From NCBI GenBank assembly GCA_018221305.1, contig JAAOYK010000046.1, forward strand, positions 1 through 38,849: a stretch of 38,849 nucleotides of DNA, read 5' to 3'. How positions within the stretch are numbered: position 1 is the stretch's first letter; each line of letters opens with the position of its first letter. The DNA comes from Candidatus Pacearchaeota archaeon (GTDB lineage Archaea > Nanobdellota > Nanobdellia > Pacearchaeales > GW2011-AR1). Made by a program: the position numbers and the translations under genes. Positions 1,629 through 37,857 of the stretch are shown piece by piece. The notes under the pieces were generated by a model. The model saw only the letters and a program-made list of their open reading frames with translations, was not told the origin of the DNA and did not search any database.

Positions 1629-4600
1629 ATGAGGAAGAAAATAGGTTTATTATTAGTTAGTGTATTATTTGGAATATTTTTAATTGGAGGAGTTTTTGCT
1701 GCAGATATTAATTATGCTTTATCAGGTGAAGGGTATGCAATGGTAAAAGTTACCCAAAGATCTCCTGGAGCAGATGGGTATGTATCTGGAGGGGATGCTG
1801 CATATATTACTGACGGAAACTTTAGTAGCTATTCTTCTCAATATTCTCATGATGGTGGATATGCTTATATTGAAGTAATATTGAACTTTTCTTCCCCAAT
1901 ACCTCAGATCAATAATTTTTTTTATAAAGTTCGTGGGGCCCGTACTGCTTCAAATTTTCAAATAAAAACCCAAGAAAACTCCTCTTGGACGACAATAAAA
2001 AGTGATTTGACTGCTCGTACAGTAATCAAGAATTTTACAGTAGATGGCCCATTTTACAATGTCACAGAAATCAGATTTTATGTCCGAAGTAATTCTGATA
2101 ATGATCCTTATCGTGACCCCTATGGAGTTGCCATTTATGAAATTGAAGCATGGGGTCCTGAATCTGCGACAGAACCTACAGTTATCAATACTGCTTGCCC
2201 TTCAGGATTAGTAAGTTATTGGAGTTTTGATGATGGAACTGCAAATGATCAGATTGGAAATAATGATGGGACTATTTATGGGCCAAATTCTGCTGCTGGA
2301 AAAGTTAGTAATGCATTAAATTTTGATGGTGTTGATGATTATGTAGGAGTTAGTGATGATAATAGTTTAGATATGGAAGGGCCGTTTACAATGGGTGCTT
2401 GGATTAATCCTATTGATATTTATAATCCAATTAATGATAGAGTTACTATAATAGATAAAGGTCATCATGGAGCTGCTGCAGATACTAATTATTTGATGTA
2501 TTTAAGCCCATGGTCAATAGCATGCGTTATTGGAAATAGTACTCATTCTAGTAGTATGAGTTATCTGATGGATACAACAGGTAGTTGGAACCATGTGATG
2601 TGTATTTATGATGGCACTAGCTTTAAAATGTATGTTAATGGAGTATTTGCTAATGATAGTAAAGGTAGGATTTATGATTATGACGGAGGAGATCCAGTTT
2701 CAAATGCAGGACCAATAGTTCCTAAAGGTAATGACAAATTACTTTCTATTGGAGATTTGCACAGTTTTGATTCTGCAGGTTATCCTAATACTCCGATTGA
2801 ACAGTTCGATGGTTCAATAGATGAAGTGGTAATATTTAATAGAGCGTTGTCCCTTACAGAAATTTCTGAGCTTTATCAAAAAGGGGCAAATGGAGTTGGA
2901 GCTTGTGCTCAAACCTCCACATGTAATAATAATCAACGAATAATGAAACTATATTCACCAAGCAATTCTCATGGCGCAAAATGGGACGATACACATCAAG
3001 AATATTCAGTTGATATCTGTTATAATACTATTTTTGGGAGTGACTTTGTTGATTCAGGAACAGGTTATCATCCAGATTCATGTACTGATCCGATTTTGTG
3101 GATGACGGCAGATTATAATTCGCATGCATCAACAACAAGTCATGACACATACACAACACCAGTATGTTATGGAGATTTAAGTTGTAGTATACAGGATAAT
3201 GCTTGTAATGCAGGCGAAGAAATGGTTTTAGCATTATATGATACAGACAATTCACATATTACTGATCCTAATTATCGGCCTAGTGGATTGGTAAGTGAAT
3301 GGAAATTTGATGGAGATGTCTTGGATAGTGTTGGTGGGAATGATGGGACTTGGAACGGTGGAGGAAGTGCTAGTTATGATGATGGGCAGATTGGGCAGGG
3401 GTTAGAGTTTGATGGTGGTGGTGATTGGGTTGATATTCCAAATATTGATTTGGCTAGTGAGTATTCTTATTCTATATGGTTAAAGACAGATGCTGACATT
3501 CAGGAAACATATGGAATTAATAGTGTTGCTAGTGTTGGAAATGGGGTGATGAATGGTTATAACACAACATCTATATTATCTATGGGGAAAAATGCTCTTG
3601 CAATAACTGGTCATTGGAATAATAATGTTCCTTTGCAATTGTGGTATGATTTTCCGATCTTGAAGGATGATTGGACTAATGTGGTTATAACTTCTGTGAA
3701 CAATGTTGGGTCTGTTTACGTTGATGGAGATTTTATTGGTACTTTTAATGATCCTATGGATTTTAATATTGGAATGATTGGAACTCGTTCTTATCAATAT
3801 GATAGTAATCCTCCTGCGTACTCTTATTACTATTTTGACGGACTTATGGATAATTTTCAAATCTATGACCAAGCACTATCTTCTGAAGAGGTTCAACATT
3901 TATACAATAAAGAAGCATATACAAAAAAAGTCTGCTGCAAATCAGACACATCAGTCACAACTACTGGAGCGTACTGGGCAGACATGACAGATAAACTGAT
4001 CAACAAAACAGACCTTGAAGATGAAGTAAAAGTTGTTATTGATCAAGCAGCTTTTCAAGGACAAAATATTAATGTGACAATATATGAAGATAGTGACAGT
4101 TTTGTTAGACGTATTTTAAACATATTAACGTTTGGTTTTGTTTCAGCAAACCCAATAGTAGGTACTGTTTCAGGTGCAGGATATGTTACATGGGTTGCAG
4201 GAGATAAGGGAGAGGGCACATTAAAGTCAGGAAATTATTATTTTAAAGCTCACCCTGAAAATGATAAAAGTAATGTTATTGATTCACGCGATTATGGACC
4301 GTATGGCATATTAACAGTTACAGACACTGTTGATAACGAGGTCCCTACAGCTGTAATTATTAGTCCTAATGAAAGTAATAAATACATAATCAAGCAAGCA
4401 ACAAACAAGACAAACATGATATATTTTACTCAAGCAAGTTATGATGAGGACGATGATTTAAAAATTCAATGGACTTTAGGAGAATCAATAAAAAGTCAAT
4501 GGTTCCTTAATTGCCAGAAAGGACAAAGTTGTAACACTATTCATGTTTATAACAAAAGTGGGGTAAAATATATTGAGCTGGTTGCACAAGAAATGAAAAG

Positions 4601-5033
4601 AAGTCAAAGCAACAAAGATCAAACCAATATTTTGGTCTATAAAGAAGGCATTAATATATTTGTTTTAATGAAAGAAAAAAAGAGTCTAGATGACAGTAGA
4701 GGGGTTATAATAGATACTACAGATACACATGTTGCTAATTGTACTCGCTCATGGGCCAATATTGCTGCATGCAGCGCTACAAACCCACAAAACATGAAAA
4801 GTGGATCATCATGTTATCAAGTAACAGATAGTGATAATCCAAGTGAGATGATTGTTTGTTATAATATAGAAACAGGAAATCCTGGAGGGAGTAAATTAAA
4901 ATATTTTTGGAGTGCTGATGGTTATGATATTGAACCTGCAATAGTCATTGGAAATGCATGGAAATATTATTATCTTTTTGATGATCCTGGAGATCATAAA
5001 ATAAAGTTAAAAGCAGCATTTCTTCCATCATAA
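1629..5033 (+). CDS. Large secreted protein with discoidin-like N-terminus, two LamG/ConA-like lectin domains and PKD-like C-terminal region
   Basis: N-terminal signal peptide; two copies of SGLVS(Y/E)W(S/K)FD...NDGT...G.(A/G)L.F(D)G..D(Y/W)V typical of LamG-like domains; AVIISP...DEDDDLKIQW PKD-like stretch. Confidence 0.8.
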   Translation: MRKKIGLLLVSVLFGIFLIGGVFAADINYALSGEGYAMVKVTQRSPGADGYVSGGDAAYITDGNFSSYSSQYSHDGGYAYIEVILNFSSPIPQINNFFYKVRGARTASNFQIKTQENSSWTTIKSDLTARTVIKNFTVDGPFYNVTEIRFYVRSNSDNDPYRDPYGVAIYEIEAWGPESATEPTVINTACPSGLVSYWSFDDGTANDQIGNNDGTIYGPNSAAGKVSNALNFDGVDDYVGVSDDNSLDMEGPFTMGAWINPIDIYNPINDRVTIIDKGHHGAAADTNYLMYLSPWSIACVIGNSTHSSSMSYLMDTTGSWNHVMCIYDGTSFKMYVNGVFANDSKGRIYDYDGGDPVSNAGPIVPKGNDKLLSIGDLHSFDSAGYPNTPIEQFDGSIDEVVIFNRALSLTEISELYQKGANGVGACAQTSTCNNNQRIMKLYSPSNSHGAKWDDTHQEYSVDICYNTIFGSDFVDSGTGYHPDSCTDPILWMTADYNSHASTTSHDTYTTPVCYGDLSCSIQDNACNAGEEMVLALYDTDNSHITDPNYRPSGLVSEWKFDGDVLDSVGGNDGTWNGGGSASYDDGQIGQGLEFDGGGDWVDIPNIDLASEYSYSIWLKTDADIQETYGINSVASVGNGVMNGYNTTSILSMGKNALAITGHWNNNVPLQLWYDFPILKDDWTNVVITSVNNVGSVYVDGDFIGTFNDPMDFNIGMIGTRSYQYDSNPPAYSYYYFDGLMDNFQIYDQALSSEEVQHLYNKEAYTKKVCCKSDTSVTTTGAYWADMTDKLINKTDLEDEVKVVIDQAAFQGQNINVTIYEDSDSFVRRILNILTFGFVSANPIVGTVSGAGYVTWVAGDKGEGTLKSGNYYFKAHPENDKSNVIDSRDYGPYGILTVTDTVDNEVPTAVIISPNESNKYIIKQATNKTNMIYFTQASYDEDDDLKIQWTLGESIKSQWFLNCQKGQSCNTIHVYNKSGVKYIELVAQEMKRSQSNKDQTNILVYKEGINIFVLMKEKKSLDDSRGVIIDTTDTHVANCTRSWANIAACSATNPQNMKSGSSCYQVTDSDNPSEMIVCYNIETGNPGGSKLKYFWSADGYDIEPAIVIGNAWKYYYLFDDPGDHKIKLKAAFLPS

Positions 5034-6000: not shown

Positions 6001-8823
6001 ATGAGGTTGAAAATATTAATATTTGTAATAGTAATAGGCCTACTATGTAACACTATTTCTGCAACATACGTGTTAGGCAATGGTACACATGAAATTGTTG
6101 CAAGTTATGGTTTTAACCAGCCAATATCTGGATGGGTTAACATGAGTTTTGAGAATGAACCTCAGAATAGCCTTTTTGAAATGTTAGGAGCCCAGATAAC
6201 GCTTAAAGATCTTCTTGAGATCAACAGTATTGGTTATAACTGCATTCCTGCAGATTGCAAAAATGCATATTCGTTTGACGAAGATGATGAATTATTAACA
6301 GACACGATAAGCCTTGGATATTTAGAAGAAAAAAGTTATGCAATAGTTCTTTCTGGGGAAGAGATAGAAATTTCAAACTTTAAAGCTGTAATAAATACTG
6401 ATGCACAAGAATCTTGTATGTATCCATTAAGAATAGAATTCTTAGACGGTGATGATATGATTGAATGGACACCAAAGATTATATCTACAAATACGTGCCC
6501 TATGAGAAACCCACAAGGTTGTTTTGATGCAAGCGAGGAAACTCAAGAAACACAAATTGACAAAACAATAACTTATTGTCAGAAAATTACAATACCTCCT
6601 ACAAAAGGTTTTAGAATAGGTGCTAATATTGAAGGAACAGGAAATGCACAATTCCAGTTAACTATTATATCAGATACTATTGAAGACAAGTGTGAAAACT
6701 TAATCGACGTTACCCAAGGTGGAGAGATTAGTTGTAATATTAATTTAGAGTATGCTGTTGAGGAAGAAGAAGAAGCAACAATTTGTCTAGAAGCAAAGGA
6801 GTTAAACGGTAATGTGTATAAAATTAAGTATGAAGATGTTGAAACTTGCGGATATTTTGAAGGAACAAGCAATACAATAGACCATGATGTAAATCTTTTT
6901 GTTTATCCATTAAAATATGCAAGCATTACCAATGTAACATTTAACCAAGAACTTTTGTATCCTACTAATCCTAATGAAAACGATCTAGCTTTAAGAATTG
7001 AAAATTATATCGACGACAAATATGACGGAATATGTGATCCACAGTGTATTATTCCGATAAAATTTATTTCAGGCTCAAGATTTGATCAAGAGCTTACTTT
7101 ATCTAACTTAGAATTAAATTATTCAAAGCAGTTAGTAACACCACCAGGAATAACCAGTTTTTATGAACTTGAAAGTGCAGAAGTTTTACTGAACATGAGT
7201 TTTAAAAAAATTAATCTGGATAAAGCAAAATTTATGACACCAAACAGTTCTAAAACATTTAAAGCAGCGTTGATGTATAAAGGAAAATCAATCTTAAACC
7301 AGGAAATCGTTGTGAAATCTTTACCAACGATTGAATATGTTTTCCCAGATACTGCAGCAGCATTAGTTGAATCTGTTTTTGTAGTAACTGTTTTGGATAG
7401 TAAGGGCAACTATACTTATACATGGGACTTTGGAGACAATACCCCAGAAATTACAACATCTGAAAATATTGCAAAACATACATACACAAAAATGCAAAAT
7501 TATGATTTGATAGTAAAAGTCAAAAATAAGCTTGGAGAAGCAACAAAAAAAATTATCGTCAAAGTAGAATCACCAAAAAATGCAATACCAGGAGTAATTG
7601 CACAATTTCGTACAAATCTTGCAAATGTGTCCAAACAAATAAATAGCTTACCCTTACTTGTTAAATCTAATCTGAACAAAAAGCTTGACAGTGAAGAACG
7701 CAATATTGAAAATTTAAAATCTGCACTTGACTTACTTGACAAACAGTATAATAACACATTATCTGGCCAAAGTGATGAATATTTTAAAATAATGCAAAAA
7801 TTAAACGAACTTGCAATACCTTACCAAATAAAAGAAGTCAAAACAGGGCCTATTGATTTTTTTAATTCAAACAAGCAGCTAGATCTAGAACTCTTTGAGT
7901 TACTTGGGGCTGGAACAACAGATTATACTGAAGTTAACTACACAGGAGCTGTTAATAGGTGGCTTTTAGAAGAAGTAGATGTACAGTTTGAATCAACTGC
8001 CTATGAAACAAAGTATAAGGATGGATCCAGTGAGACAATACTATCCCTTGTTAAATTATCTATTACACCAAAAATTGCTGCATATATTGATGAGATATAC
8101 ATAATAATCAATGAAGAATTAAAAAATCTTGTTTTTAGCAGTGAAATTGGTGAAAAGTCAGTAAGCACAAGTACAGGAATTATTTTGCTAGACCTTGACA
8201 AGAAACAAACAATAGAATTTATTTATCCAGGATTAATAGATGTTATTGAAGTACCAATATATGTTTCTCCACACCTTAAAGATATTGGTACTATGGATAA
8301 CAGCAGTACGTGTGATTTTGATAACAAATGTGACAAAAGTAGTGGAGAAAACTGGAAAAACTGTCCAAAAGATTGTAAACGATTGGGAATGAGCACTTTA
8401 ATGATCTTAATTTTAATATTTATAGCATTTATTGTATACATAATATTACAAGAATGGTACAAAAGGCATTATGAAAAACATTTGTTTCCTGACAGAAATC
8501 AGTTGTTTAACCTTATTAATTTTATAAATAATTCAGAAGGTCAAGGCATTTCAAAATCTGAAATTTTTTCTAAATTATCAGAAATGGACTGGACCCAGGA
8601 ACAATTGACTTATGCATGGAAGAAATTTAAAGGGAAACGTACTGGTATGTGGGAAATACCAATATTTAAATGGGTAGAAAAGAAAAAAGTTGACAAAGAA
8701 CTAAAAAAGAGACAAATTGTAAGCAATGTGACAAAAAATCTTTCAAACAGTAAAAAAGGTAATAATCCTAAAAAAAGTCAATTTAAGCAGAGAAACAATA
8801 ATTTCAGAACTTCTTTTAAATAA
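6001..8823 (+). CDS. PKD-domain surface protein with single TM and cytoplasmic C-terminal helical/wHTH-like domain
   Basis: Signal peptide; PKD signature (YTYTWDFGDNTPEITTSENIAKHTYTKMQNYDLIVKVKN); Cys motif CDFDNKCDKSSGENWKNCPKDC; TM LMILILIFIAFIVYIIL; basic cytoplasmic tail of about 130 aa. Confidence 0.75.
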   Translation: MRLKILIFVIVIGLLCNTISATYVLGNGTHEIVASYGFNQPISGWVNMSFENEPQNSLFEMLGAQITLKDLLEINSIGYNCIPADCKNAYSFDEDDELLTDTISLGYLEEKSYAIVLSGEEIEISNFKAVINTDAQESCMYPLRIEFLDGDDMIEWTPKIISTNTCPMRNPQGCFDASEETQETQIDKTITYCQKITIPPTKGFRIGANIEGTGNAQFQLTIISDTIEDKCENLIDVTQGGEISCNINLEYAVEEEEEATICLEAKELNGNVYKIKYEDVETCGYFEGTSNTIDHDVNLFVYPLKYASITNVTFNQELLYPTNPNENDLALRIENYIDDKYDGICDPQCIIPIKFISGSRFDQELTLSNLELNYSKQLVTPPGITSFYELESAEVLLNMSFKKINLDKAKFMTPNSSKTFKAALMYKGKSILNQEIVVKSLPTIEYVFPDTAAALVESVFVVTVLDSKGNYTYTWDFGDNTPEITTSENIAKHTYTKMQNYDLIVKVKNKLGEATKKIIVKVESPKNAIPGVIAQFRTNLANVSKQINSLPLLVKSNLNKKLDSEERNIENLKSALDLLDKQYNNTLSGQSDEYFKIMQKLNELAIPYQIKEVKTGPIDFFNSNKQLDLELFELLGAGTTDYTEVNYTGAVNRWLLEEVDVQFESTAYETKYKDGSSETILSLVKLSITPKIAAYIDEIYIIINEELKNLVFSSEIGEKSVSTSTGIILLDLDKKQTIEFIYPGLIDVIEVPIYVSPHLKDIGTMDNSSTCDFDNKCDKSSGENWKNCPKDCKRLGMSTLMILILIFIAFIVYIILQEWYKRHYEKHLFPDRNQLFNLINFINNSEGQGISKSEIFSKLSEMDWTQEQLTYAWKKFKGKRTGMWEIPIFKWVEKKKVDKELKKRQIVSNVTKNLSNSKKGNNPKKSQFKQRNNNFRTSFK

Positions 8824-8890: not shown

Positions 8891-9526
8891 ATGAAAATAT
8901 TTACAAGTTTTGCAAAAAGAATGTTTGGAATTTTTTTTAAAAGAAAAAAACAAATTAGTCTTGGATTCTATGGGCCACCAAATGCAGGAAAGACAAGTCT
9001 TGCGAATAGGATCTGCAAAGACTGGACAGGAGAAGAATTAGGAAAAGTTAGCAAGATTGCTCACGAGACGCGTAATGTGCAGTTTAAAGAAGAAGTAGAA
9101 ATTAAATATAAAGAAAAAAGGCTAAAATTCAAATTGGTTGATACGCCTGGGATTGCTACGAAAGTTGATTTTGAAGATTTTATGAAATCAAAAATGAAGA
9201 AAAAAGAGGCACAACAACGTGCAAAAGAAGCTACCCAAGGTATAGTTGAATCAATCAAATGGTTGGATGACATGGACGCGGTAGTAGTCGTAGTAGATTC
9301 AACAATAAACCCATACTCACAAGTAAATGTGACTATTGTCGGAAACCTGGTTGCAAGAAAAATACCAGTACTAGTTGTTGCAAACAAAATTGATCTAAAA
9401 AAGAGTAATCTAAAAAAAGTTGAAGCAGCATTTCCAGAATATGATGTAGTAGGAATTTCAGCAAAAACTGGCAAAAATTTTGATGAATTTTATGAATCAG
9501 TGTTTAAACTCTCGAAAAAGGTTTAG
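8891..9526 (+). CDS. arvA: Era-like small GTPase, ArvA-type (archaeal vesiculation GTPase)
   Basis: G1 GPPNAGKTS, G3 DTPG, G4 NKID, G5 SAKTG; amphipathic basic N-terminus; followed by DUF2073 and OapC/ArvC-type Zn-ribbon genes, the characteristic neighbourhood. Confidence 0.8.
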   Translation: MKIFTSFAKRMFGIFFKRKKQISLGFYGPPNAGKTSLANRICKDWTGEELGKVSKIAHETRNVQFKEEVEIKYKEKRLKFKLVDTPGIATKVDFEDFMKSKMKKKEAQQRAKEATQGIVESIKWLDDMDAVVVVVDSTINPYSQVNVTIVGNLVARKIPVLVVANKIDLKKSNLKKVEAAFPEYDVVGISAKTGKNFDEFYESVFKLSKKV

Positions 9527-9598
9527 CAAAGTTTAAAAATAAAAATATACTAATATAACATATATAACAAAGAGTAGTATAAAAAAAGAGGTAAGAAA

Positions 9599-10003
9599 GT
9601 GGGTAAAAAAAATAAAAAAACAAGAAAGCTAGACGGATTAACATTACAATTTATGCCTTATAGTGAAATTGCAAAACTTGATACTATTGAAAGAATTAAA
9701 AAACTTCTAAAGATTGTTTTAGACAATAAAGTAGTCATACTTCAGGGAAGATTAAAACCAGAAGAAGAAACACGCCTTATTGAGGATACAATGATAATGA
9801 TTGGAAATATTAAGGGGTTTAAGGGTGTTGAATTGGCTGTTATATCACAAGATACAGAAGAACGCACATTTCTTCAAAAAATGAAGTTTGGCCTTGCAAA
9901 AGCTTTGGTCGGTCAGCAAGATTCATTAACTATTATTGGCCCTGCAACAATCGTCAAAGAGATGAAAAAAGATCCAAAAAAACTTGAAGTAATGATGAGG
10001 TAA
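9599..10003 (+). CDS. arvB: DUF2073 / OapB-ArvB family protein (GTG start)
   Basis: DGLTLQFMPYSEIAKL...ILQGRLKPEEETRLIEDTM matches the DUF2073 pattern as recalled; SD-like GAGGT upstream of GTG. Confidence 0.75.
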   Translation: MGKKNKKTRKLDGLTLQFMPYSEIAKLDTIERIKKLLKIVLDNKVVILQGRLKPEEETRLIEDTMIMIGNIKGFKGVELAVISQDTEERTFLQKMKFGLAKALVGQQDSLTIIGPATIVKEMKKDPKKLEVMMR

Positions 10004-10014
10004 AAAAAGCTAAA

Positions 10015-10311
10015 ATGAAAATCCGAATTTTTAGATACGCAGTGTTCGCACTTTTATTAATTGCGTTTGTAAGCGCAGCAGAGTGCCCACAAGGAGCTAT
10101 ATGTAGTGATGGTGAGATTAGTGTTAGTAGCGAAGATAAAATCGATAAAATACAAGACCCACAATCACGCTGGATAAAAATTTTAGGGATTACTGCTGCT
10201 GTTATCTTATTATGGTACATTGTTCATAGATATAAATTAAAATATTTGAAAAAAAAGTTAAAATATAATACAAACAGTAAAACCAAAGAAGCAAGAAAAA
10301 AACGAAAATAA
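10015..10311 (+). CDS. Small membrane protein, signal peptide plus one TM and basic tail
   Basis: MKIRIFRYAVFALLLIAFVSAAECPQGAICSDG...WIKILGITAAVILLWYIVHRYKLKYLKKKLKYN; sits between arvB and arvC. Confidence 0.65.
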   Translation: MKIRIFRYAVFALLLIAFVSAAECPQGAICSDGEISVSSEDKIDKIQDPQSRWIKILGITAAVILLWYIVHRYKLKYLKKKLKYNTNSKTKEARKKRK

Positions 10312-10403
10312 GGATTTTTTTCTAGCTATTATAATCATTATTTGTGTAGATAGTATTGATAATTATACTAAAAGTTTATTAATTCATGTTTCTTGCAATT
10401 TTT

Positions 10404-10865
10404 ATGCCACATCAATGTACAAAATGCGGAGTAATATACAAAGATGCTTCACCAGAGATCCTAAAAGGATGTAGCTGTGGAAGCAAATTTTTCTATTATA
10501 TAAAACAAGAAGCTTTAGATAAAAAAAAGGAAACTGTTGATGAACAGTTATTTGACGCATTACCTCAAGATATTCAAGATAAAATAACTGAGTTAGATAA
10601 AGCAGATAAAGATCAAATTGAGCGAGATATAAGAGAAATTACAGGCCTTAATGATGAGGAAATGGAAAAACCAGTAATCCTAGACCTTGAGTCTGTCAAA
10701 GTGATAAGTCCTGGAAAGTTTGAAATTGATGTTGTTAACCTTTTTAATAAAAAACGTCCATTAATATACAAATTAGAAGAAGGAAAATATATCATTGATC
10801 TTGCTGCATCGTTTAAGGCCAGCACTGATGAACTTAGCAGAAAAATCAAAGATCCGGATGCTTAA
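10404..10865 (+). CDS. arvC: Zn-ribbon protein, DUF2072 / OapC-ArvC family (ORF track start at 10386; internal Met at 10404 preferred)
   Basis: MPHQCTKCGVIYKDASPEILKGCSCGSKFFYYI: two CxxC/CxC knuckles at the N-terminus, acidic middle. Confidence 0.75.
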   Translation: MPHQCTKCGVIYKDASPEILKGCSCGSKFFYYIKQEALDKKKETVDEQLFDALPQDIQDKITELDKADKDQIERDIREITGLNDEEMEKPVILDLESVKVISPGKFEIDVVNLFNKKRPLIYKLEEGKYIIDLAASFKASTDELSRKIKDPDA

Positions 10866-10870
10866 AAATT

Positions 10871-12607
10871 ATGGAAAAGAAAAGAGGCCAAGCTCAAATT
10901 ATAACTGTCGTTTTAATAATTCTTGTAGGTACTGCGCTAATCTTAATTTTGAGTGCTGTGTTTATACCTTTTGTTGAGTCTACCAGGAAGATTGAAAATG
11001 TTGAAGTCTTTAAAGTGAAGCTTACCTTAAAAGAAGCAAAAACATACATAAACGAAAAGAATGCTAATTGTATAAATTTTACAATCTTTCGCGAGGTCGG
11101 TGATGGAAAATTTAAAGGGTTTTTAGTAGTGATTGAGAATAAAAGTGGTGTTAAATATTCTTATAGACAATATGTTACTGATTTTGAGGAATTAGAAGAA
11201 AAAGCGTTTAAGAAATGTTTTGGTAATAAAGTTATAAATCTTAGCAGAGTCTCAATATACCCTATAACTAATTCAAGCGGAGAGGATCAGTTTGGAAATT
11301 TTCCATCCACAGTACGAATAAAAACAAGAGATTGTAAATTTGACAAGGATTGTAATAATGCCAATGCATGTACTATCGGTACGTGTAATACTGCAAAAGG
11401 AGAATGTTTACAAAGTGATGTAACTAGCTGTAATAAAAAACATGACGGATGTTGTCCAGACAACTGTAATACAGACGAAGATTCTGATTGTTTAGTGTGC
11501 ATTGATGATGAATGTGAGAGTGATTCAAACCCGTGCACAGATGAAGTCTGTGTTAAAGGAACTTGTAGATCCATTAATAATGATGCTAACATATGTAGTG
11601 GCAGTGAGGCGTGTACTGTTGATACATGTCAGGGAGGGGATTGTAAATCAACATCTGTATGTAATAGTATAATTGAAGGATGTGATACTGACTGTTGTGA
11701 TTATGCAACTGATGATGATTGTGAGGAACCAATTTGTAATGAATGTACAGAATGCGATACACTGTTTAGTGGCTGTGACTTTGACGAATGTAAAGCGTGT
11801 GCCCAAGACTGTTATTATAGAGGTATCAAAATATTTGCAGAAAACTGTATTCAAAAAGATTATGCATGCACTTTTATAACTCAATGTAGTAATTATCATA
11901 ACTTAGAATGTGTTGATCCAAATTTTACAGACTTTTGTAATGTTAACCCGGGACTTGGATGCAGATATAGTGAAGAATTGGGTTGTGTTGACGTAGAAAT
12001 TAGTTGTGGAGACGGCATTTGTAGTCAGCAGGAAAGTAACTGTTGTCAGGATTGTGGATGCGAAGGGGGGCTTTTTTGTGATGATCAAGTCGGAGCCTGT
12101 GTAGAATGTTTGCTTGAGACTGATTGTACGGATCCCTTAACTTGTTATTTAGATTCTGAAGCTAGTTGTGATTTTGGTACTTGCCAATATAAAGAAATTT
12201 CATCAGGGTCTACAGATCCAGGAAAATGTAATGCAAGCATTGGTTGTAGTCAAACTCCTTGTATTTGTGATGGATCTGGAACATGTATTGATGATGTTGA
12301 ATGTACAAACAAATCTCAATGCCCAGCAGACGTTTATATGCCAAATCAATGCAGAAGCGGAGACATAATGAGGAAGTGGGTTGGTTATTATTGTGATACT
12401 AACGTGAGTGAATGTAAATCAACATTTTCTTGGGGAATTGTCGAGGATTGCAATGATGGAGATGACTGTACAAGTGATTCTTGTAGTAATGGTTTATGCA
12501 GAAATAGTATCACTTGCTGTAGAGATAATGACAGTTCATGCCCTAGTGGATGTAGTAGTGATAATGATAATGACTGTACTATCCAAGGAAGTGATGATTA
12601 TATATAG
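10871..12607 (+). CDS. Type IV pilin-like N-terminus fused to a very Cys-rich ectodomain
   Basis: MEKKRGQAQIITVVLIILVGTALILILSAV pilin-like segment; about 70 Cys after residue 150 by hand count; repeated C-x-D-C...D-x-D-C modules; CGDGICSQQESNCCQDC motif. Confidence 0.7.
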   Translation: MEKKRGQAQIITVVLIILVGTALILILSAVFIPFVESTRKIENVEVFKVKLTLKEAKTYINEKNANCINFTIFREVGDGKFKGFLVVIENKSGVKYSYRQYVTDFEELEEKAFKKCFGNKVINLSRVSIYPITNSSGEDQFGNFPSTVRIKTRDCKFDKDCNNANACTIGTCNTAKGECLQSDVTSCNKKHDGCCPDNCNTDEDSDCLVCIDDECESDSNPCTDEVCVKGTCRSINNDANICSGSEACTVDTCQGGDCKSTSVCNSIIEGCDTDCCDYATDDDCEEPICNECTECDTLFSGCDFDECKACAQDCYYRGIKIFAENCIQKDYACTFITQCSNYHNLECVDPNFTDFCNVNPGLGCRYSEELGCVDVEISCGDGICSQQESNCCQDCGCEGGLFCDDQVGACVECLLETDCTDPLTCYLDSEASCDFGTCQYKEISSGSTDPGKCNASIGCSQTPCICDGSGTCIDDVECTNKSQCPADVYMPNQCRSGDIMRKWVGYYCDTNVSECKSTFSWGIVEDCNDGDDCTSDSCSNGLCRNSITCCRDNDSSCPSGCSSDNDNDCTIQGSDDYI

Positions 12608-14718: not shown

Positions 14719-14766
14719 AAAAATCGATAACTAACCTTTAAATAATGAATAACTCTTTGTATGTTT

Positions 14767-16029
14767 ATGAAACTAAAAACAGTTCTAGATGAACAACTTA
14801 ACCAAATTCAACTTGAAAAGGAAGTTTTTAAAAAAATTAGTGAAACTGCCAACAACTTTGTCAAACAATTACAAAACAAATTAAGCAAAAAAGGGATTGC
14901 TGCAGAAGTGTTTATTGGAGGAAGCCTTGCAAAAAATACATTAGTAAAGAAAGATACGTATGATGCTGATATTTTTGTGCGATTTGATGAAAAATATGAC
15001 GATTCTCGTATCTCAAAAATCTTAGGTAAAATTTTGTCCAGAAAAGCAAAAAAGTTACACGGTTCGCGGGATTATTATCAGTTAAATATAGATGGTATAT
15101 TAATTGAGGTTGTGCCTGTTACAAAGATTAAACAACCAGAAGATGCAAGAAACGTTACGGATCTTAGTTATTTTCATGTAAATTATGTCTTAGGGAAAAA
15201 TAAAAAAAATAAAAAGTTAAAAAACGAAATTATTTTAGCTAAAGCTTTTTGTCATGCACAAAATGCTTATGGTGCAGAAGGTTATGTGAAAGGGTTTTCA
15301 GGATATTCAATAGAACTACTAATTTGCCATTATGGATCTTTTGAGAAATTTTTGCAGGCAATCCAAAAATTAAAACCAGATGAAAAAATTATTATTGATG
15401 ATGCAAAGTTTTACAAAAAAAATAATGTTTTACAGGAATTAAATAATGCCAAATTGCAAAGTCCAATTATTTTAATTGATCCAACATATAAGCAACGAAA
15501 CGCTTTAGCCGGTCTTTCAAATGAAAGGTTGAACAAATTTAAAACTGTAGCAAAGAAATTTTTACAAAATCCAGGAAGTGAATTTTTTGTCAAGAAGGGT
15601 ATATTAAAAGATTTAAAAGAAAAATATAAAGAGAAATTGGAAATTTTAGTTGTACAAACCAACAGACAGGCAGGAGATATTAGTGGTACAAAATCAAAGA
15701 AGTTTTTTGAATTTTTTAAGTATAAATTAAAAAGAGAGTTTGTAATTCTTGAGGCAGAATTTGAGTATAGTGAAGAAAAAAATTATGCAGGATTTTATTT
15801 TGTTGTAAACAAGAAAAAGGATGAAACAATTAAAGGTCCAAGCTTAAAAGATACCCAAAATGTTGCTCGTTTTAAGAAAATGCATGAACAGAGTTTTGTA
15901 AAAAATAATAGAATCTGTGCTAAATTAAGTCATAACATAAATTTTGAAGGTTTTCTTAAAAAATTTGTTCAAAAAGAAAAGAAAATTATCAAAAGTATGA
16001 GCATTAAAAAAATTAGTTTACTTAGGTAA
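14767..16029 (+). CDS. cca: CCA-adding enzyme (archaeal class I tRNA nucleotidyltransferase)
   Basis: GGSLAKNTLVKKDTYDADIFVRF nucleotidyltransferase motif, GFSGYSIELLICHYGSF, IILIDPTYKQRNALAGLS. Confidence 0.9.
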   Translation: MKLKTVLDEQLNQIQLEKEVFKKISETANNFVKQLQNKLSKKGIAAEVFIGGSLAKNTLVKKDTYDADIFVRFDEKYDDSRISKILGKILSRKAKKLHGSRDYYQLNIDGILIEVVPVTKIKQPEDARNVTDLSYFHVNYVLGKNKKNKKLKNEIILAKAFCHAQNAYGAEGYVKGFSGYSIELLICHYGSFEKFLQAIQKLKPDEKIIIDDAKFYKKNNVLQELNNAKLQSPIILIDPTYKQRNALAGLSNERLNKFKTVAKKFLQNPGSEFFVKKGILKDLKEKYKEKLEILVVQTNRQAGDISGTKSKKFFEFFKYKLKREFVILEAEFEYSEEKNYAGFYFVVNKKKDETIKGPSLKDTQNVARFKKMHEQSFVKNNRICAKLSHNINFEGFLKKFVQKEKKIIKSMSIKKISLLR

Positions 16030-18572: not shown

Positions 18573-19499
18573 TTAAAGAATTAACCAGTTAACAAGCATT
18601 CCAAGATACATACCTGTTGTTAAAAATGGCATTGCTGGGTAAAATTTTCCTTTACGTGCTAATATGAACAAAGCTATAAGAGATAATGTTGCAAAAACAC
18701 TTATTACTAATGCAGGCATAAGTCCTGCAAGTTTATAAAAAACTCCTGCAGTAATTATTGGAAAGACAACATCCCCACCACCAAGAATTGCTAAGCTTAC
18801 CTTAACTTTTGCTTTTTTGAATTCTTTTTCAATTTTTTCGTCACCCTTACCTTTATATTTTTGTTTTATTTGTTGAATTTTAGCTTTTTCTCCCTTGTTA
18901 GCATAAGGTACAAAAAAGCCAGCAAAGATTTTTAGATTATTCATTTGGTAATTTGCCATCTTTTGCATAAAACCACTACGCCACACTGCCCAAATGTCAT
19001 ACAAAGAAATAATTAGTAAAAGAATAATTATCCCAAAAATTCCTAGGATCGGTACAAAAACAGCAGCTATTCCAGGATAGATTAATAATTCAGTAAAATT
19101 ATGAACATAAAAATTACGTCTATAAATTTTTATGAATGCAAAAGGAAGAGCAACAACTGCAGCAATAATTGCAGGATAAACCAAATTAAATCTTACTAAA
19201 AGTGCATTAATTGCCAAAGACAGTGCAAGAATTGTAACAAAGAAAAACCAAAATCTGATAAATTTGGCTGCATTTATTTTTGTTAGAAAAACGAAAAGTG
19301 CTACTGCTATTATAAAAGAAATAACAATTGATGTAATAATGGAAAGAGAATCTTCACTTTTTAATTCTTCAGGAGGCTCCATGCCAAAAGGCAACTGATT
19401 ATCATTACTATTATAAGTGGCAATTACAAATAATCCGATCAACTGCGTCACAAAAAACATTATAACAAGAATTGTAGTTACTTTTATGCTATGTTTCAT
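18573..19499 (-). CDS. Presenilin/signal-peptide-peptidase-like intramembrane aspartyl protease (A22)
   Basis: Polytopic; SLYDIWAV (YD) and LGGGDVVFP (GxGD) motifs plus PAMPFLT (PAL-like). Confidence 0.85.
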   Translation of the reverse strand: MKHSIKVTTILVIMFFVTQLIGLFVIATYNSNDNQLPFGMEPPEELKSEDSLSIITSIVISFIIAVALFVFLTKINAAKFIRFWFFFVTILALSLAINALLVRFNLVYPAIIAAVVALPFAFIKIYRRNFYVHNFTELLIYPGIAAVFVPILGIFGIIILLLIISLYDIWAVWRSGFMQKMANYQMNNLKIFAGFFVPYANKGEKAKIQQIKQKYKGKGDEKIEKEFKKAKVKVSLAILGGGDVVFPIITAGVFYKLAGLMPALVISVFATLSLIALFILARKGKFYPAMPFLTTGMYLGMLVNWLIL

Positions 19500-19588
19500 A
19501 TCGTATGAAAACCAATGAGGTTCTCTCCTTTTTATATCTAATATAGTAAAAGCATGTTTTTAAAGCTATACCAAGCAGAAGAAGAAAA

Positions 19589-21475
19589 TTAACGCAATCT
19601 TATTGTTTCAAGATTTCTTGGAACATTTGTCTCTATGTGATGCAATTTGTAAATACTAGACGCAAGGTCCAAACATTTGCTTTGTTCACCATGATTAATG
19701 ATTATACGATTTGGTCTAGGATTACTTCTATTAGCAAAATCTAATAATTCATTTCTTCCAGCATGTGCTGTTAGGCCAGGGATTGTAACAATTTCTAAGT
19801 TTACACTAATATCTTCATCTTTGCCATCAACAGTCATTTTTACATGTTTTATTCCATCTTGTATTTGTCTACCTAATGAACCAACACCTTGATAACAAAC
19901 AAAACAAATTTTATTTTTTTTATTGCTTGCAAAATGTCTTAAGTACTCAACAGATGCCCCTCCAACAAGCATACCTGAAGTTGCCAAAACAACGCATGGC
20001 CCGCCTTCTATTACTTCTTTTCTTTCAGTAGGACTACCAACACGAACAAAAATGTTTGAGACAAACGGATTATTGTCTTGAAAAATTTCTTTTCTTACAT
20101 GACCATTCAAAAAGTCAGGATATGCCGTATGAATACCATTAATGTCCCAGATCATACCATCAATATAAATAGGAACTTTTGGCATCTTCCCTTCTCTCAT
20201 TGCCTCTTCTAATATAAGCATTGTTTCTTGAGCTCTACCAAGACCTAACTCTGGAACTAAAATTTTTCCACCTTTCCTTATGGTATCTTTTATTGACTCA
20301 ATAAGTTGCTCTTCAGAATCACGCCGTGGAGGTAATATATCATTCCGGCTACCATAAGTTGATTCTACAATCATTGTCTCAAGACGTGGAAAGTTTGAGA
20401 TAGAACGATCAAGTAGCTTTGTCTTAGCATACTTCATATCTCCAGTATATAACAAATTATGAGCACCATTGCCAATATTAATATGAACCATTGCGCTTCC
20501 TAAGGCATGACCAGAATTATAAAGCGTTATTCGCATATCCTGAGCAATATCTGAGACTTCATTGTAATCAAGACAGATTGTATGCTTAACCATTTCTTTT
20601 ACGTCAACTGATGAAAATAATGGGGCAGAGGCTTGTTTATATGCTACACCAATAAAGTCAAGAGCAAGTAATGCTGCAATGTCACGTGTAGGAGCAGTCA
20701 TATATACAGGTCCACGGTAACCCATCTTGAAAAGATAAGGTATAAGTCCTGAGTGATCAAGATGTGCGTGTGATAAGATTATTGCATCAAGCTCATTAAT
20801 TTTAAATTCTGAAACGTCTAAGTAAGGAAACTTTTCTTTACCTTTACCTGCAACATTAATCCCACAATCAAGAAGGACCTTTGTTTGAGAAGTTTGGAGT
20901 AATAAACAACTTCGGCCGACTTGTCGTCCGCCTCCAAGAAACGAAACCCTTATCCATCCATCCATTTTTTCAGGATTCCATTCTTTGTAAATCTTTTTTC
21001 CAACAGAATTAAGAAACCTTTTACGTGTGGTATTATTTTGGTAAAGGACTGCACGAATACTTTCAGTAATCTTACTTTTTATTGCAGGACTACGTTGAAC
21101 TTGAGGAGTCCAAAATGTTTTTTCACGAATTTCTTTTAAAATAAGTCCAGATTTACCAATAACAAGTCCGGGTCGCTTAGCTTCAATAACAACTATACTT
21201 CTTTGAGGATCAAACAAAACTTCAGTAACACCTGCATCATCAGGCACAGTTTCTTTAATTATTCTCTCGGTTTCTTCATTAGATTTTAATAGTTTAGAAT
21301 CGCAACGAAGATCTATACGTTTCTTGAACTTGTTTACAAGTTCCCTAATAATGCCATCATTGTTCTTAAAAAAATCCATATCATTAGTATAAAGAACAAT
21401 ATTTGCTCCTTCAAAGTTTGCACTACCTATAACTTTTGGTAATTGTTTCTGAATATCTTTTAGAATATCTGCCAT
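19589..21475 (-). CDS. fttA: aCPSF1/FttA: KH-domain beta-CASP transcription termination ribonuclease
   Basis: N-terminal KH (RPGLVIGKSGLILKEI), metallo-beta-lactamase HAHLDHSG, beta-CASP region, C-terminal GLTAHAGRNELLDF. Confidence 0.93.
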   Translation of the reverse strand: MADILKDIQKQLPKVIGSANFEGANIVLYTNDMDFFKNNDGIIRELVNKFKKRIDLRCDSKLLKSNEETERIIKETVPDDAGVTEVLFDPQRSIVVIEAKRPGLVIGKSGLILKEIREKTFWTPQVQRSPAIKSKITESIRAVLYQNNTTRKRFLNSVGKKIYKEWNPEKMDGWIRVSFLGGGRQVGRSCLLLQTSQTKVLLDCGINVAGKGKEKFPYLDVSEFKINELDAIILSHAHLDHSGLIPYLFKMGYRGPVYMTAPTRDIAALLALDFIGVAYKQASAPLFSSVDVKEMVKHTICLDYNEVSDIAQDMRITLYNSGHALGSAMVHINIGNGAHNLLYTGDMKYAKTKLLDRSISNFPRLETMIVESTYGSRNDILPPRRDSEEQLIESIKDTIRKGGKILVPELGLGRAQETMLILEEAMREGKMPKVPIYIDGMIWDINGIHTAYPDFLNGHVRKEIFQDNNPFVSNIFVRVGSPTERKEVIEGGPCVVLATSGMLVGGASVEYLRHFASNKKNKICFVCYQGVGSLGRQIQDGIKHVKMTVDGKDEDISVNLEIVTIPGLTAHAGRNELLDFANRSNPRPNRIIINHGEQSKCLDLASSIYKLHHIETNVPRNLETIRLR

Positions 21476-21516
21476 TTTTTAAATTCTTTTGATAAAAATT
21501 ATGTTACACACCTTAT

Positions 21517-22179
21517 TTATTTTTGATTTTTATACTCTGGAGTAATTATTTGCTCAACAACATGTTTTATGCCTTTAGAAGTAATGGTCATCACATCAAA
21601 TCCATTACCGCTTGCAATATCACGTTGAGTTGACGCTTTTAACGCCTCTACTGCTAAATCTATTGCATCTGTTACACTTATATCTTTTTTATATTGTCTC
21701 TCTAATAATCCCAAGATATAAGGCATTCCTGATGAAAAATTTGCATCAAAATCTTCTACCTGTACTGCAGATCCTGCAGGTTCAACAGTGTAAAGTTCTG
21801 CTGATCCATCTTCATTAAATCCTCCAACCATTGTTCCTGCAACAAAAGCTATTGTTGAAAATTGACGAATATTACGATATGCAATAGTTGCAATCAAATT
21901 AGCTGCCTCCTTAACACTTGGCCTAAATTTTGATTTCAATTCTTTTAATCTTAATTCTGCTCTAACAATCTTTTGAAGCATTTCAATATCTGATGCTACA
22001 CCTGTACCTGATAATACTAAATAATCATTAATCATTACTACTTTTTGTTTATTCTTATTCATTACAATAGTGCCTGCAGTACTACGTCTGTCTCCAGCCA
22101 TAACAACACCATCTTTACAGACTATGCCTACAAGACTTGTGCCAGATTGTAAAACGCTTTTTTTCAATTCATTATCCAT
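21517..22179 (-). CDS. psmB: Proteasome beta subunit
   Basis: Short propeptide then G|TSLVGIVCKDGVVMAGDRRSTAG, VLSGTGVASD. Confidence 0.93.
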   Translation of the reverse strand: MDNELKKSVLQSGTSLVGIVCKDGVVMAGDRRSTAGTIVMNKNKQKVVMINDYLVLSGTGVASDIEMLQKIVRAELRLKELKSKFRPSVKEAANLIATIAYRNIRQFSTIAFVAGTMVGGFNEDGSAELYTVEPAGSAVQVEDFDANFSSGMPYILGLLERQYKKDISVTDAIDLAVEALKASTQRDIASGNGFDVMTITSKGIKHVVEQIITPEYKNQK

Positions 22180-34153: not shown

Positions 34154-34873
34154 ATGGAAATACCAGATATGCAGCATCAAGTAATGGGCTATGACAGAAG
34201 TGCGACAATGTTTTCACCTGACGGTCACATCTTACAAGTTGAATATGCAGAAAAAACAGTACGTCTTGGAAGTGCAAGTATTGGTATAAGAGGTACAGAT
34301 GGTGTGGTTATTATTGCTGATAAAGGTAAAAAAGATGAATTAATTGTTCCAGAATCAGCCGATAAAATTTATGAAATTGATGAGCATATAATCGCAAGTG
34401 CTGCAGGGATTCTAAGTGATGCTCGAATACTTATAAATCAGGTACGTATTAGTGCTCAACAGCACAGAGTTACATATGATTCTCCAGTGGACACTGAAAC
34501 AGTAATTCGAGAAATTTCTGACATAAAACAACAATATACTCAACATCCAGGCGTAAGGCCTTTTGGTGTCGCATTAATTGTTGCAGGAAGGCAAGGAGAC
34601 AAATGTAAATTATATACAAGCGATATTACAGGCAATTATTTTGAATATAATGCTATAGCTATTGGGAAAAATGATGACAGAGTTAAAGATCTTTTACGAA
34701 AGAAGTATAAAAAAGATTTGACAATAGATCAATCAATAAAGCTAGCACTAGGAATATTTAAAGAAATTTTAGGAGAAAATTTTGATCCTGGACGATTTAA
34801 TGTTACTTATATTAAAAATAAAGAAGGCAAATTAAAAAAATTAAAAGCAGAGGAAATCAAAAAACACGCATAA
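34154..34873 (+). CDS. psmA: Proteasome alpha subunit
   Basis: MGYDRSATMFSPDGHILQVEYAEKTVRLGS N-terminal signature. Confidence 0.95.
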   Translation: MEIPDMQHQVMGYDRSATMFSPDGHILQVEYAEKTVRLGSASIGIRGTDGVVIIADKGKKDELIVPESADKIYEIDEHIIASAAGILSDARILINQVRISAQQHRVTYDSPVDTETVIREISDIKQQYTQHPGVRPFGVALIVAGRQGDKCKLYTSDITGNYFEYNAIAIGKNDDRVKDLLRKKYKKDLTIDQSIKLALGIFKEILGENFDPGRFNVTYIKNKEGKLKKLKAEEIKKHA

Positions 34874-34876
34874 AAA

Positions 34877-35557
34877 ATGGTAGATACAATTGCTAGATTA
34901 AGGGTTGGTAAGATGACTTTTGAGACGATGGTAGATCTAAATGCTGCTATGAAATTTAGAAAAGGAGAAGGAGATATCAGTGAAGCTATAAGAGACAATG
35001 AAATCTGGACTGATATTAAAAAAGGAATGCGGCCTGCACAGGATGAAATTGAAAATGCTTTTGGAACATCACAATTATCAGAGATTACAGCTAAGATTAT
35101 CAAACGAGGAGAACTAGAAGTTACACAAGAATATCGTGATGAGGCCTTAGGAGCAAAGAAAAAACAAGTTATTGATTTTTTAGCAAAAAATGCTGTTGAT
35201 GCTCGTACTGGACGACCATATACACCAGACCTAATTGAGAGTGCAATAAAAGAAGCAGGAATAAGAATTGACAATCAAGCTATTGAAAAACAAATGGGAT
35301 CTATAACCGAAAGTTTAAAAAAGGTCATTCCAATTAAAATAGAAACAAAAAAAATCAAAATTATTATACCTGCGCAACATACAGGCAGAGGATACGGATT
35401 ATTACAAGAATATAAGGAAAAAGAAACTTGGAATGGAGATGGTTCATTGGAAGTTATCCTTAATATTCCAGTTGGAATTCAGGTTGATTTTTATGATAAA
35501 TTAAATAGTATAACTCATGGAAGTGCCATTACACAAGAAATTAAAAGTGTAGAATAA
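34877..35557 (+). CDS. sdo1: SBDS ribosome maturation protein
   Basis: ARLRVGKMTFETMVD...GDISEAI..NEIWTDIKKG..A, NAVDARTGRPYTPDLIESAIKEAGI. Confidence 0.93.
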   Translation: MVDTIARLRVGKMTFETMVDLNAAMKFRKGEGDISEAIRDNEIWTDIKKGMRPAQDEIENAFGTSQLSEITAKIIKRGELEVTQEYRDEALGAKKKQVIDFLAKNAVDARTGRPYTPDLIESAIKEAGIRIDNQAIEKQMGSITESLKKVIPIKIETKKIKIIIPAQHTGRGYGLLQEYKEKETWNGDGSLEVILNIPVGIQVDFYDKLNSITHGSAITQEIKSVE

Positions 35558-35561
35558 AAAA

Positions 35562-36266
35562 ATGACAGAAAAAACAAACAAAAAGCAACGAAAAATAGTA
35601 ATCCCTGGAGAAATAATTGTTTCTGCAGAAGATCATTTACCTGGAGATTTTACTAGAAAAGAAGATGGAAATATTATCGCTAATAGATATGGGCTAGTTG
35701 ATGATAGTGGAAGAATTATAAGAATCATCCCAATTTCTGGGGCTTTTGAGCCAAGACGAGGTAACACTGTTATTGGACGAGTAGAAGATATCACTTTTAA
35801 TGGGTGGGTTATTCACATTGGAGGACCTTACACAGCATTCTTACCTTTAGCTGAATGTCCAAGATATATTGATCGAAAAGCAATAAATGAATTTGCAACA
35901 ATTGGTGATGTATTAAACTTAAAAATTTGGGGTATTAAAAAAGGAAGTATTGATTTAACATTAAAATCGCGTGGACTTGGAAAACTTGAAGGCGGAAGAG
36001 TCATTAAAATTAATTCTCATAAAGTTCCAAGAGTTATTGGAAAAGAAGGAAGCATGATAAATTTAATAAAAAATTCAACAAATACTGAAATTACTGTAGG
36101 ACAAAACGGATTCATCTGGATAAAAGGAGACTTTGAAGGAGAGAAAAGAGCAGAAGAAGCAATAAACTTAGTTGTTAAAGAAGCAACATCAACAGGATTA
36201 ACAGAAAAGATTGAAGAATTTCTAGGCGGAAAAGTTGAAAAAATAACTGAAGAGGTTAAAGAATAA
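35562..36266 (+). CDS. rrp4: Exosome RNA-binding subunit Rrp4
   Basis: VIPGEII, S1 domain GNTVIGRVEDITFNGWVIHIGGPYTAFLP, KH VPRVIGKEGSMINLIK. Confidence 0.93.
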   Translation: MTEKTNKKQRKIVIPGEIIVSAEDHLPGDFTRKEDGNIIANRYGLVDDSGRIIRIIPISGAFEPRRGNTVIGRVEDITFNGWVIHIGGPYTAFLPLAECPRYIDRKAINEFATIGDVLNLKIWGIKKGSIDLTLKSRGLGKLEGGRVIKINSHKVPRVIGKEGSMINLIKNSTNTEITVGQNGFIWIKGDFEGEKRAEEAINLVVKEATSTGLTEKIEEFLGGKVEKITEEVKE

Positions 36267-36267
36267 A

Positions 36268-36996
36268 ATGCCATACACAAAACGACCTGATGGAAGAGAA
36301 ATGGATGAACTTCGTCCAATTAAAGCAGAAGTAGGAGTTGTACCTAATGCAGATGGATCTGCACTTTTTGCGCATGGAGACACATTAGCTATTGCAGCAG
36401 TTTACGGACCAAAACCATTACATCCAGCACACTTACAAAAAGCTGATAGGGGACTAATCAGAGCAAATTATAATATGTTACCATTTTCAGTTACTGAACG
36501 AGCTAGGCCTGGGCCTTCAAGAAGAAGTAAAGAAATTTCAATGGTTACAGCAAATGCATTATCAAGTGTTGTTGATTTGAAAAGATTTCCAGGTACTGTT
36601 ATTGATGTAGAAATATTAATCTTACAAGCAAATGCCTCAACAAGATGTGCAGGAATTAATGCTGCAGCAATGGCACTAGCACATGCCGGAATAGTTATGA
36701 ACGAAATGGTATCAAGTGTATCTATAGGTAAAATTGATGACAAAATTGTTGCAGATATAACAAAAAAAGAAGAAGATTGGACCGAAGGTGAAGGAGCAAC
36801 AGATATTCCGTTCACTTTAACATCAAATACAAAAGAAATAACTCATCTTCAATTAGACGGGAAAATTTCAACATCTAGAATGATGGAATCATACGATGCA
36901 GCAGTTAAAGCATGTGAGAAGATATATGAATATCAAAAACGAGCATTAAAAGGAGAAAAGATAGATGAAAATGTATCTTTAAAAAAGGAAGAATAA
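36268..36996 (+). CDS. rrp41: Exosome catalytic subunit Rrp41
   Basis: RPDGREMDELRPIKAEVGVVPNADGSALFAHGDTLAIAAVYGP; RNase PH fold. Confidence 0.93.
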   Translation: MPYTKRPDGREMDELRPIKAEVGVVPNADGSALFAHGDTLAIAAVYGPKPLHPAHLQKADRGLIRANYNMLPFSVTERARPGPSRRSKEISMVTANALSSVVDLKRFPGTVIDVEILILQANASTRCAGINAAAMALAHAGIVMNEMVSSVSIGKIDDKIVADITKKEEDWTEGEGATDIPFTLTSNTKEITHLQLDGKISTSRMMESYDAAVKACEKIYEYQKRALKGEKIDENVSLKKEE

Positions 36997-36999
36997 AAA

Positions 37000-37821
37000 A
37001 TGAATTTACCAAATATTAATAAGAAAAGAATTGAAAGCCTACTTAGTCAAGACAAAAGGCTTGATGAAAGAAAACTTTTTGATTACAGAGATATAATAAT
37101 CGAAACAGGAATTTCTGGTAATGCTGAAGGTTCTGCAAGAGTAAGAATCGGAAAAACAGAAGTCATAGTAGGAGTAAAACTTGGGACACAAACACCATAC
37201 ACAGACCATGAAGATGAAGGTACAATGATTACCGGAATGGAATTTAGTCCGATGTGTGGTGAAAGATATGAAGGTGGACCTCCAAAAATAAATGCAATAG
37301 AAACTGCAAGAGTTGTAGACAGAGGCATTAGAGAAAGTGGATTTATTGATTGGAAAAAGTTATGCATTAAAGAAGGAGAAACAGTATGGAGTGTTGCAAT
37401 AGATATTTATTGTGTGAATGATGACGGAAACGTTTTGGATGCTAGCTCAATCGGTGCTGTTGCTGCATTAATGATGACAAGATTTCCTGTATATGATGAA
37501 AAAGAAGAAAAGGTTAAATTCGGAGAATGGACAAATGATCCATTACCATTAACAGAAAAGGTACCTTTTGCTATGACAATTTATAAAGTTGGGGATAAGT
37601 TATTAGCAGACCCTAACAGAGAAGAAGAAGATGCTGCAAAAGCACGAGTAACATTAGCAATATCAAAACCAGGAAAAGAGTATATGATCAACTCTATGCA
37701 GAAAGGAGAGCTTGATACAATTAATGGTGAAGATTTGAAAAAGATTTTAGAAGAATCTGAAAAAATATATGACAAAATTTTCCCAGAATTAGATAAACAG
37801 ATAAAAAGTTTACAAAAGTAA
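37000..37821 (+). CDS. rrp42: Exosome subunit Rrp42
   Basis: DKRLDERKLFDYRDIIIETGISGNAEGSARVRIGKTEVIVGVK; follows rrp41. Confidence 0.93.
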   Translation: MNLPNINKKRIESLLSQDKRLDERKLFDYRDIIIETGISGNAEGSARVRIGKTEVIVGVKLGTQTPYTDHEDEGTMITGMEFSPMCGERYEGGPPKINAIETARVVDRGIRESGFIDWKKLCIKEGETVWSVAIDIYCVNDDGNVLDASSIGAVAALMMTRFPVYDEKEEKVKFGEWTNDPLPLTEKVPFAMTIYKVGDKLLADPNREEEDAAKARVTLAISKPGKEYMINSMQKGELDTINGEDLKKILEESEKIYDKIFPELDKQIKSLQK

Positions 37822-37857
37822 GTTTTTTATACATTAAACTTTATATAAATTCATAAA

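Follow-up and report, generated by a model that had tools for sequence, protein, structure and literature searches.

The locus described here is, with high confidence, a bona fide ArvABC (= OapABC) set of a Candidatus Pacearchaeota genome, and two of its features are worth following: its GTPase, ArvA, carries the predicted signature of a K+-activated enzyme, and a conserved gene for a PKD-domain membrane protein lies directly upstream of arvA in Pacearchaeota. The system itself is already known and was reported in seven DPANN phyla (Mills et al. 2024, PMC10927574), so its presence in a Pacearchaeote was expected and the present copy is a new member. The K+ signature goes beyond that account of DPANN ArvA, and so does the PKD neighbour found throughout the family; also new here are the near-universality of ArvABC in the phylum, the conservation of ArvA, which exceeds that of the housekeeping neighbours RtcB and Cca, and the conserved basic, Phe-containing N-terminus of ArvA. 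The locus lies in a stretch of 38,849 nucleotides, hereafter the window, and its gene identities, order, conservation and motifs were established directly. As an overall explanation, we consider it somewhat probable that ArvA is a membrane-acting K+-GTPase that would work together with ArvB and ArvC, with the PKD protein as a candidate partner.

The first gene, arvA (oapA; 8891..9526, on the + strand, as are arvB, arvC and the genes described below for the CCA-adding enzyme and the 98-aa and 578-aa proteins), starts with ATG and encodes a 211-aa Era/Der/MnmE-like GTPase, a complete small GTPase domain of less than 250 aa that matches Pfam MMR_HSR1 at 59.8 bits (cut-off 21.9). Starting 72 nt after it, arvB (oapB; 9599..10003) begins with GTG and encodes a 134-aa protein matching PF09846 at 61.3 bits (cut-off 27, E 9.7e-17); OapB is the current Pfam name of the DUF2073 domain described by Mills et al. 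(PMC10927574). One gene separates arvB from arvC (oapC, DUF2072; 10404..10865), which encodes a Zn-ribbon protein (CxxC...CxC) matching PF09845 OapC at 91.6 bits (cut-off 23). An earlier note on this DNA had proposed an ArvABC locus composed of an Era-like GTPase, a 134-aa DUF2073 protein and a 154-aa Zn-ribbon protein, and both Pfam matches, being above cut-off, together with the intact G1–G5 motifs of ArvA, bear out the proposal. The length of ArvC calls for amendment: the mechanical open reading frame spans 10386-10865 (159 aa) and homologues start at the Met of MPHQC, so the gene probably covers 10404-10865 and encodes 153 aa. The assignment of ArvA to its family is supported indirectly, by its linkage to ArvB and ArvC, its length and its motifs; this linkage was present in most of the related loci examined, and most relatives, which share 54-85% identity across the phylum, occur with linked ArvB/ArvC.

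In the usual gene order of the family, a surface-protein gene or RtcB is followed by the PKD membrane protein, ArvA, ArvB, ArvC and the CCA-adding enzyme. The window keeps this order with insertions, so that the next conserved gene 3' of arvC, the CCA-adding tRNA nucleotidyltransferase Cca (14761..16029; PF09249, 103 bits), is separated from it. Between arvB and arvC lies a gene that the earlier note had not mentioned, for a 98-aa lineage-specific protein (10015..10311) with a predicted signal peptide, a basic tail and a single transmembrane segment; homologues were absent from the related loci examined and the content of the arvB-arvC gap varies, and we rejected it as a conserved fourth component. 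A 578-aa Cys-rich secreted protein with a pilin-like N-terminus (KRGQAQIITVV...; 10871..12607) begins 5 nt after arvC; it likewise lacks a homologue in related loci and was rejected as a conserved member, the conserved gene downstream of arvC being Cca. Further upstream, at 1629-5033, the window encodes a 1134-aa laminin-G domain surface protein, whose place is held in many family genomes by similar, poorly conserved surface proteins. Elsewhere in the window, genes for proteasome alpha, Rrp4, an RNase PH family protein and a possible Rpb6 follow one another at 34154-38298 as an ordinary archaeal exosome/proteasome cluster, and a presenilin-like SPP protease, the transcription terminator FttA and a second proteasome subunit are encoded consecutively at 18573-22179 on the - strand.

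The source genome (1.26 Mb, 67 contigs, 61% complete) holds a single copy of arvA. A scan of named genomes returned at least 563 ArvA relatives, the best 80 of which, at 66-85% identity, are almost all from Candidatus Pacearchaeota / Nanoarchaeota metagenome-assembled genomes. This confirms Candidatus Pacearchaeota (Nanoarchaeota, DPANN) as the host and agrees with the DPANN origin suspected in the earlier note. A few of these 80 are labelled Dojkabacteria, bacterium, Diapherotrites, Parvarchaeum or Woesearchaeota; those with a bacterial name seem to come from wrongly labelled bins, and two loci titled Dojkabacteria bacterium and bacterium (L111 and L112) are typical Pacearchaeota ArvA loci from bins that seem mislabelled or contaminated. 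No viral or plasmid-borne ArvA was found in PLSDB or IMG/VR.

What is known of the function of ArvABC comes from Haloferax volcanii, where, according to Mills et al. (PMC10927574), deletion of arvA lowers and its over-expression raises the number of extracellular vesicles, deletion of arvB results in fewer vesicles and deletion of arvC in more. The same source counts 1,666 ArvA homologues in 14 archaeal phyla, seven of which, Nanoarchaeota among them, are DPANN, and gives ArvB for ~95% and ArvC for ~91% of the genomes that have ArvA; DPANN ArvA forms a clade of its own there, to which the window ArvA would add one more member. Like the Haloferax set (HVO_3014, 3013, 3012; PMC10927574), the window locus comprises a single-domain GTPase of under 250 aa with a candidate hydrophobic N-terminal helix, a DUF2073/OapB gene directly downstream whose product has a predicted SepF-like fold, and a DUF2072/OapC Zn-ribbon gene within two genes. 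Unlike the locus described for Haloferax, it lies between the PKD membrane-protein gene and the gene for the CCA-adding enzyme, and an additional gene, for the 98-aa membrane protein, separates arvB from arvC. Mills et al. state that function beyond haloarchaea is untested (PMC10927574), and our literature searches returned no later functional work on ArvA; to speak of vesicle machinery in DPANN is an extrapolation from Haloferax.

All GTPase motifs are present in ArvA: G1 GPPNAGKT (residues 28-35), G2 Thr60 in HETR, G3 DTPG (84-87), G4 NKID (165-168) and G5 SAK (190-192), by which the intact G1, G3, G4 and G5 noted earlier were found again and G2 was added. In the P-loop GPPNAGKTSLAN (8972..9007, + strand), Asn31 and Asn39 form the asparagine pair typical of K+-activated GTPases, and the G3 stretch DTPGIAT (9140..9160, + strand) places hydrophobic Ile88 where Ras has its catalytic Gln, the signature of HAS-GTPases. 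Throughout the family these positions hardly vary: Asn31, within GxxNxGK(T/S), and Asn39, five residues past the P-loop Lys, occur in 115/115 ArvA proteins, as does DTPG, and residue 88 is Ile in 114 and Leu in one. In MnmE, FeoB and EngA, K+ binding is determined by the two asparagines, and HAS-GTPases are marked by the hydrophobic residue (PMC3466195); K+ activation is listed for this superfamily, and dimerisation is the activating event for its MnmE-type members (PMC6310460). In a HMMER alignment, Asn31 and Asn39 of ArvA line up with the asparagines of TrmE (MnmE) and Der. With the G domains of MnmE/TrmE, Era, EngA (Der) and FeoB, of the TrmE-Era-EngA-Septin superfamily, ArvA shares the P-loop Asn before GK(S/T), the second Asn at Lys+5, a T-R in switch I, a hydrophobic residue behind DTPG/DTAG, NKxD and SA; members of this superfamily are also its best PDB profile matches. 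It differs from MnmE/TrmE, Era, EngA and FeoB in having none of their accessory domains and in its basic, putatively amphipathic N-terminus. The first P-loop Asn is also found in Sar1 and some Arl proteins, so it does not discriminate by itself; the combination does. A second K+ Asn is not known at that place in Arf/Sar1. Judged from these motifs, ArvA would be a K+-activated and probably dimerising GTPase, and a GEF/GAP cycle would then not be needed to explain it.

In another Nanoarchaeota family, one arvA gene (L081:4549-6570, - strand, contig C10 of genome G065) is interrupted by a complete intein that includes a LAGLIDADG endonuclease (Intein_splicing 95.7 bits, LAGLIDADG_3 60.4 bits). 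It sits inside the P-loop (GPPNSGK / intein / TSIANR), and GTP binding would therefore hinge on protein splicing. The split arvA genes of two further genomes (G057 and G145) were dismissed as contig-end artefacts.

The N-terminal segment of ArvA (residues 1-20; 8891..8950, + strand) is a candidate membrane-binding helix. The earlier note had described it as basic and Phe-rich, MKIFTSFAKRMFGIFFKRKKQ, and able by its looks to bind membranes. The sequence is correct and both properties are conserved in the family: across 112 relatives the mean net charge is +4.7 and the mean hydrophobic moment 0.56, the moment exceeds that of 95% of shuffles in 62% of the proteins, and Phe is conserved at F16 (112/115), F7 (103/115) and F12 (95/115). 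The hydrophobic moment of the window copy taken singly is not significant against shuffles (p = 0.20).

These features bear on the model of Mills et al., in which ArvA is an Arf-like switch, ArvB its exchange factor and ArvC its GTPase-activating protein. Like eukaryotic Arf/Sar1, ArvA is a small, putatively membrane-bound GTPase that has a candidate amphipathic segment at its N-terminus and a tie to vesicle budding; the model further accords with the arvB and arvC knock-out phenotypes in Haloferax and with an HMM search reported by its authors that ranked the Arf family first (PMC10927574). In our searches, however, Pfam and PDB profiles place Der, Era and MnmE before Arf and Sar1: Der/EngA, MnmE/TrmE and Era are nearest among PDB profiles (E 2e-12 to 2e-7), with Arf (5e-6) and Sar1 (3e-4) behind them, and a single-sequence search against Pfam Arf reached 19.6 bits, under the cut-off of 22.3. 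Besides this weaker match, the best match of ArvA is not to Arf/Sar1 and its G3, DTPGI, has no catalytic Gln/His; the presence of both K+ asparagines and the lack of the Ras/Arf catalytic Gln in 115/115 proteins argue against the published Arf-like GAP/GEF reading. Moreover, Mills et al. describe ArvB and ArvC as without homology to known GEFs or GAPs, and their main text does not mention potassium (PMC10927574). We therefore regard an Arf-like switch as improbable. The kinship with Era and Der could also point to a ribosome- or RNA-assembly GTPase with a Zn-ribbon partner, as the nearest families are ribosome-assembly and tRNA-modifying GTPases and the neighbours RtcB and Cca act on tRNA. Yet a Pfam search found no KH or other RNA-binding domain in ArvA, its basic, Phe-containing N-terminus is conserved, and in Haloferax the protein is enriched in vesicles, whose number it controls (PMC10927574), all of which makes such a role very unlikely. 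To a replication-origin function, suggested by the older name Oap (origin-associated protein) and by the origin association in Haloferax, we give hardly any credence: no replication-initiation gene is among the window proteins scanned, and a Haloferax mutant study could, in the account of Mills et al. (PMC10927574), assign no distinct function.

Directly upstream of arvA, a gene on the + strand (6001..8823) encodes a 940-aa single-pass membrane protein with a signal peptide, an ectodomain that contains Cys and a PKD domain (45.8 bits), a transmembrane segment at ~798-816 and a cytosolic tail. The transmembrane segment and conserved tail (8371..8709, + strand; WYKxxYExxLF...LxNLxxYI...GWxxEQIxYAxKKxxGKRTGMxEIP) include the best conserved part of the protein, the tail having a mean majority-residue frequency of 0.5-0.65 vs ~0.4 in the ectodomain. 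A profile of the tail finds matches together with ArvA in 52 genomes of the family; the two genes share contig and strand in 51 of these 52, the tail gene lies at most 500 nt upstream of ArvA in 49/52, with one overlapping it by a few bases, and no family genome has a near-full-length tail match without ArvA. Outside the family, the tail matches are weaker, belong to proteins of similar length and are not beside ArvA, which makes the PKD protein a candidate partner for Pacearchaeota alone. A fair alternative explanation of the adjacency is inherited gene order, since the neighbourhood keeps RtcB and Cca as well and the linkage is confined to one family.

Within the family, ArvA was found in 53/56 genomes at 67-78% identity, including 11/11 near-complete ones. 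Among 118 genomes spread over the phylum, ArvA occurs in 111, ArvB in 109 and ArvC in 111, and the same seven, from five family-level groups, lack all three (the near-complete genomes G060, G063, G087, G110, G143, G154 and G157). Based on this joint absence, the three genes seem to have been lost together, perhaps on some five occasions. In two further genomes, G059 (L087; a single contig, 100% complete) and G138 (L088; 95% complete), ArvA adjoins ArvC and no ArvB is recognisable, which is probably a natural loss of ArvB. Outside the phylum, the OapB and OapC families also match in Haloferax volcanii and Methanosarcina acetivorans, and in none other of 14 named control genomes. Since nearly all genomes of the phylum have the cassette and free-living Euryarchaeota share it, its presence is uninformative on host dependence. 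Mean identity to the window proteins is 73% for ArvA (100 loci), 56% for RtcB (10 loci) and 44% for Cca (61 loci). ESCRT-III, considered as an alternative vesicle system in the genomes without ArvABC, gave no match over the family cut-off in the sampled Nanoarchaeota genomes, with a Pfam model that is weak even in the Sulfolobus control.

The AlphaFold model of ArvB (pLDDT 82) has as its best match among solved structures archaeal SepF (7al1; probability 0.84, E 0.05, TM 0.34/0.48), a weak match, and further SepF entries, 3zig included, are among the fold matches; the model of ArvC is of low confidence (pLDDT 69). The resemblance of ArvB to SepF repeats for DPANN what was reported of Haloferax ArvB and is suggestive and not proof; a sequence search of ArvB against the SepF family PF04472 gave no match at E <= 1. 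A genuine SepF is encoded elsewhere in the source genome (G000:C59), and SepF is found in 115/118 genomes of the phylum, including all seven without ArvABC, so ArvB is not a replacement for SepF and was rejected as its substitute.

Together, the near-universality and the level of conservation of ArvA, whose identity exceeds that of RtcB in 10/10 paired loci and that of Cca in 61/61, suggest a core task broader than vesicle release. They speak for a reading, less likely than not in our estimate, in which ArvABC is a core factor of the cell envelope, cell shape or division, vesicle loss in Haloferax being one consequence of its absence and release of vesicles by DPANN cells not being required; the SepF-like fold of ArvB and the lower frequency of rod-shaped cells in the Haloferax mutant (PMC10927574) are consistent with it. 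The seven otherwise near-complete genomes manage without the set, however, the SepF present in them and in nearly all others speaks against this reading as well, and the increase in vesicle output on over-expression of ArvA in Haloferax, as reported by Mills et al., indicates a direct effect. Our preferred explanation, a membrane-acting K+-GTPase with partners, is itself weakened by the suggestion of a core task and by the two near-complete genomes that keep ArvA and ArvC without a recognisable ArvB.

According to this preferred explanation, ArvA would use its basic, Phe-containing N-terminus to bind the membrane on the cytosolic side and would hydrolyse GTP as a K+-activated enzyme of the TrmE-Era-EngA type, in which Asn31 and Asn39 serve K+ and no catalytic Gln takes part, and pairing of G domains, not an Arf-type GAP, would probably switch it on. 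ArvA, ArvB, whose SepF-like fold may make it an assembly or membrane adapter, and ArvC, a Zn-ribbon protein that appears to act as a brake in Haloferax, might together bend or bud the cell membrane. A candidate for their membrane partner or cargo receptor in Pacearchaeota is the PKD protein encoded upstream, whose cytosolic tail is conserved. A more far-reaching version, which we think rather unlikely, is that the ArvA family consists of K+-activated, dimerising membrane-remodelling GTPases of the Era/MnmE lineage and not of Arf-like switches, and that in Pacearchaeota it is coupled to a transmembrane PKD surface protein whose cytosolic tail would recruit ArvABC and so link the surface protein to vesicle or envelope budding in a probable ectosymbiont.

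ArvA is the GTPase that drives vesicle formation in haloarchaea, and the K+ signature offers a way to tell an Arf-like from an Era/MnmE-like model of its action and bears on claims that see in ArvA a forerunner of eukaryotic vesicle trafficking. In the linked PKD membrane protein, ArvABC has a concrete candidate partner. Cumulatively, near-universality, all-or-none loss and no ESCRT-III match over cut-off in the sampled genomes make ArvABC a leading candidate for membrane remodelling in the small cells of Nanoarchaeota.
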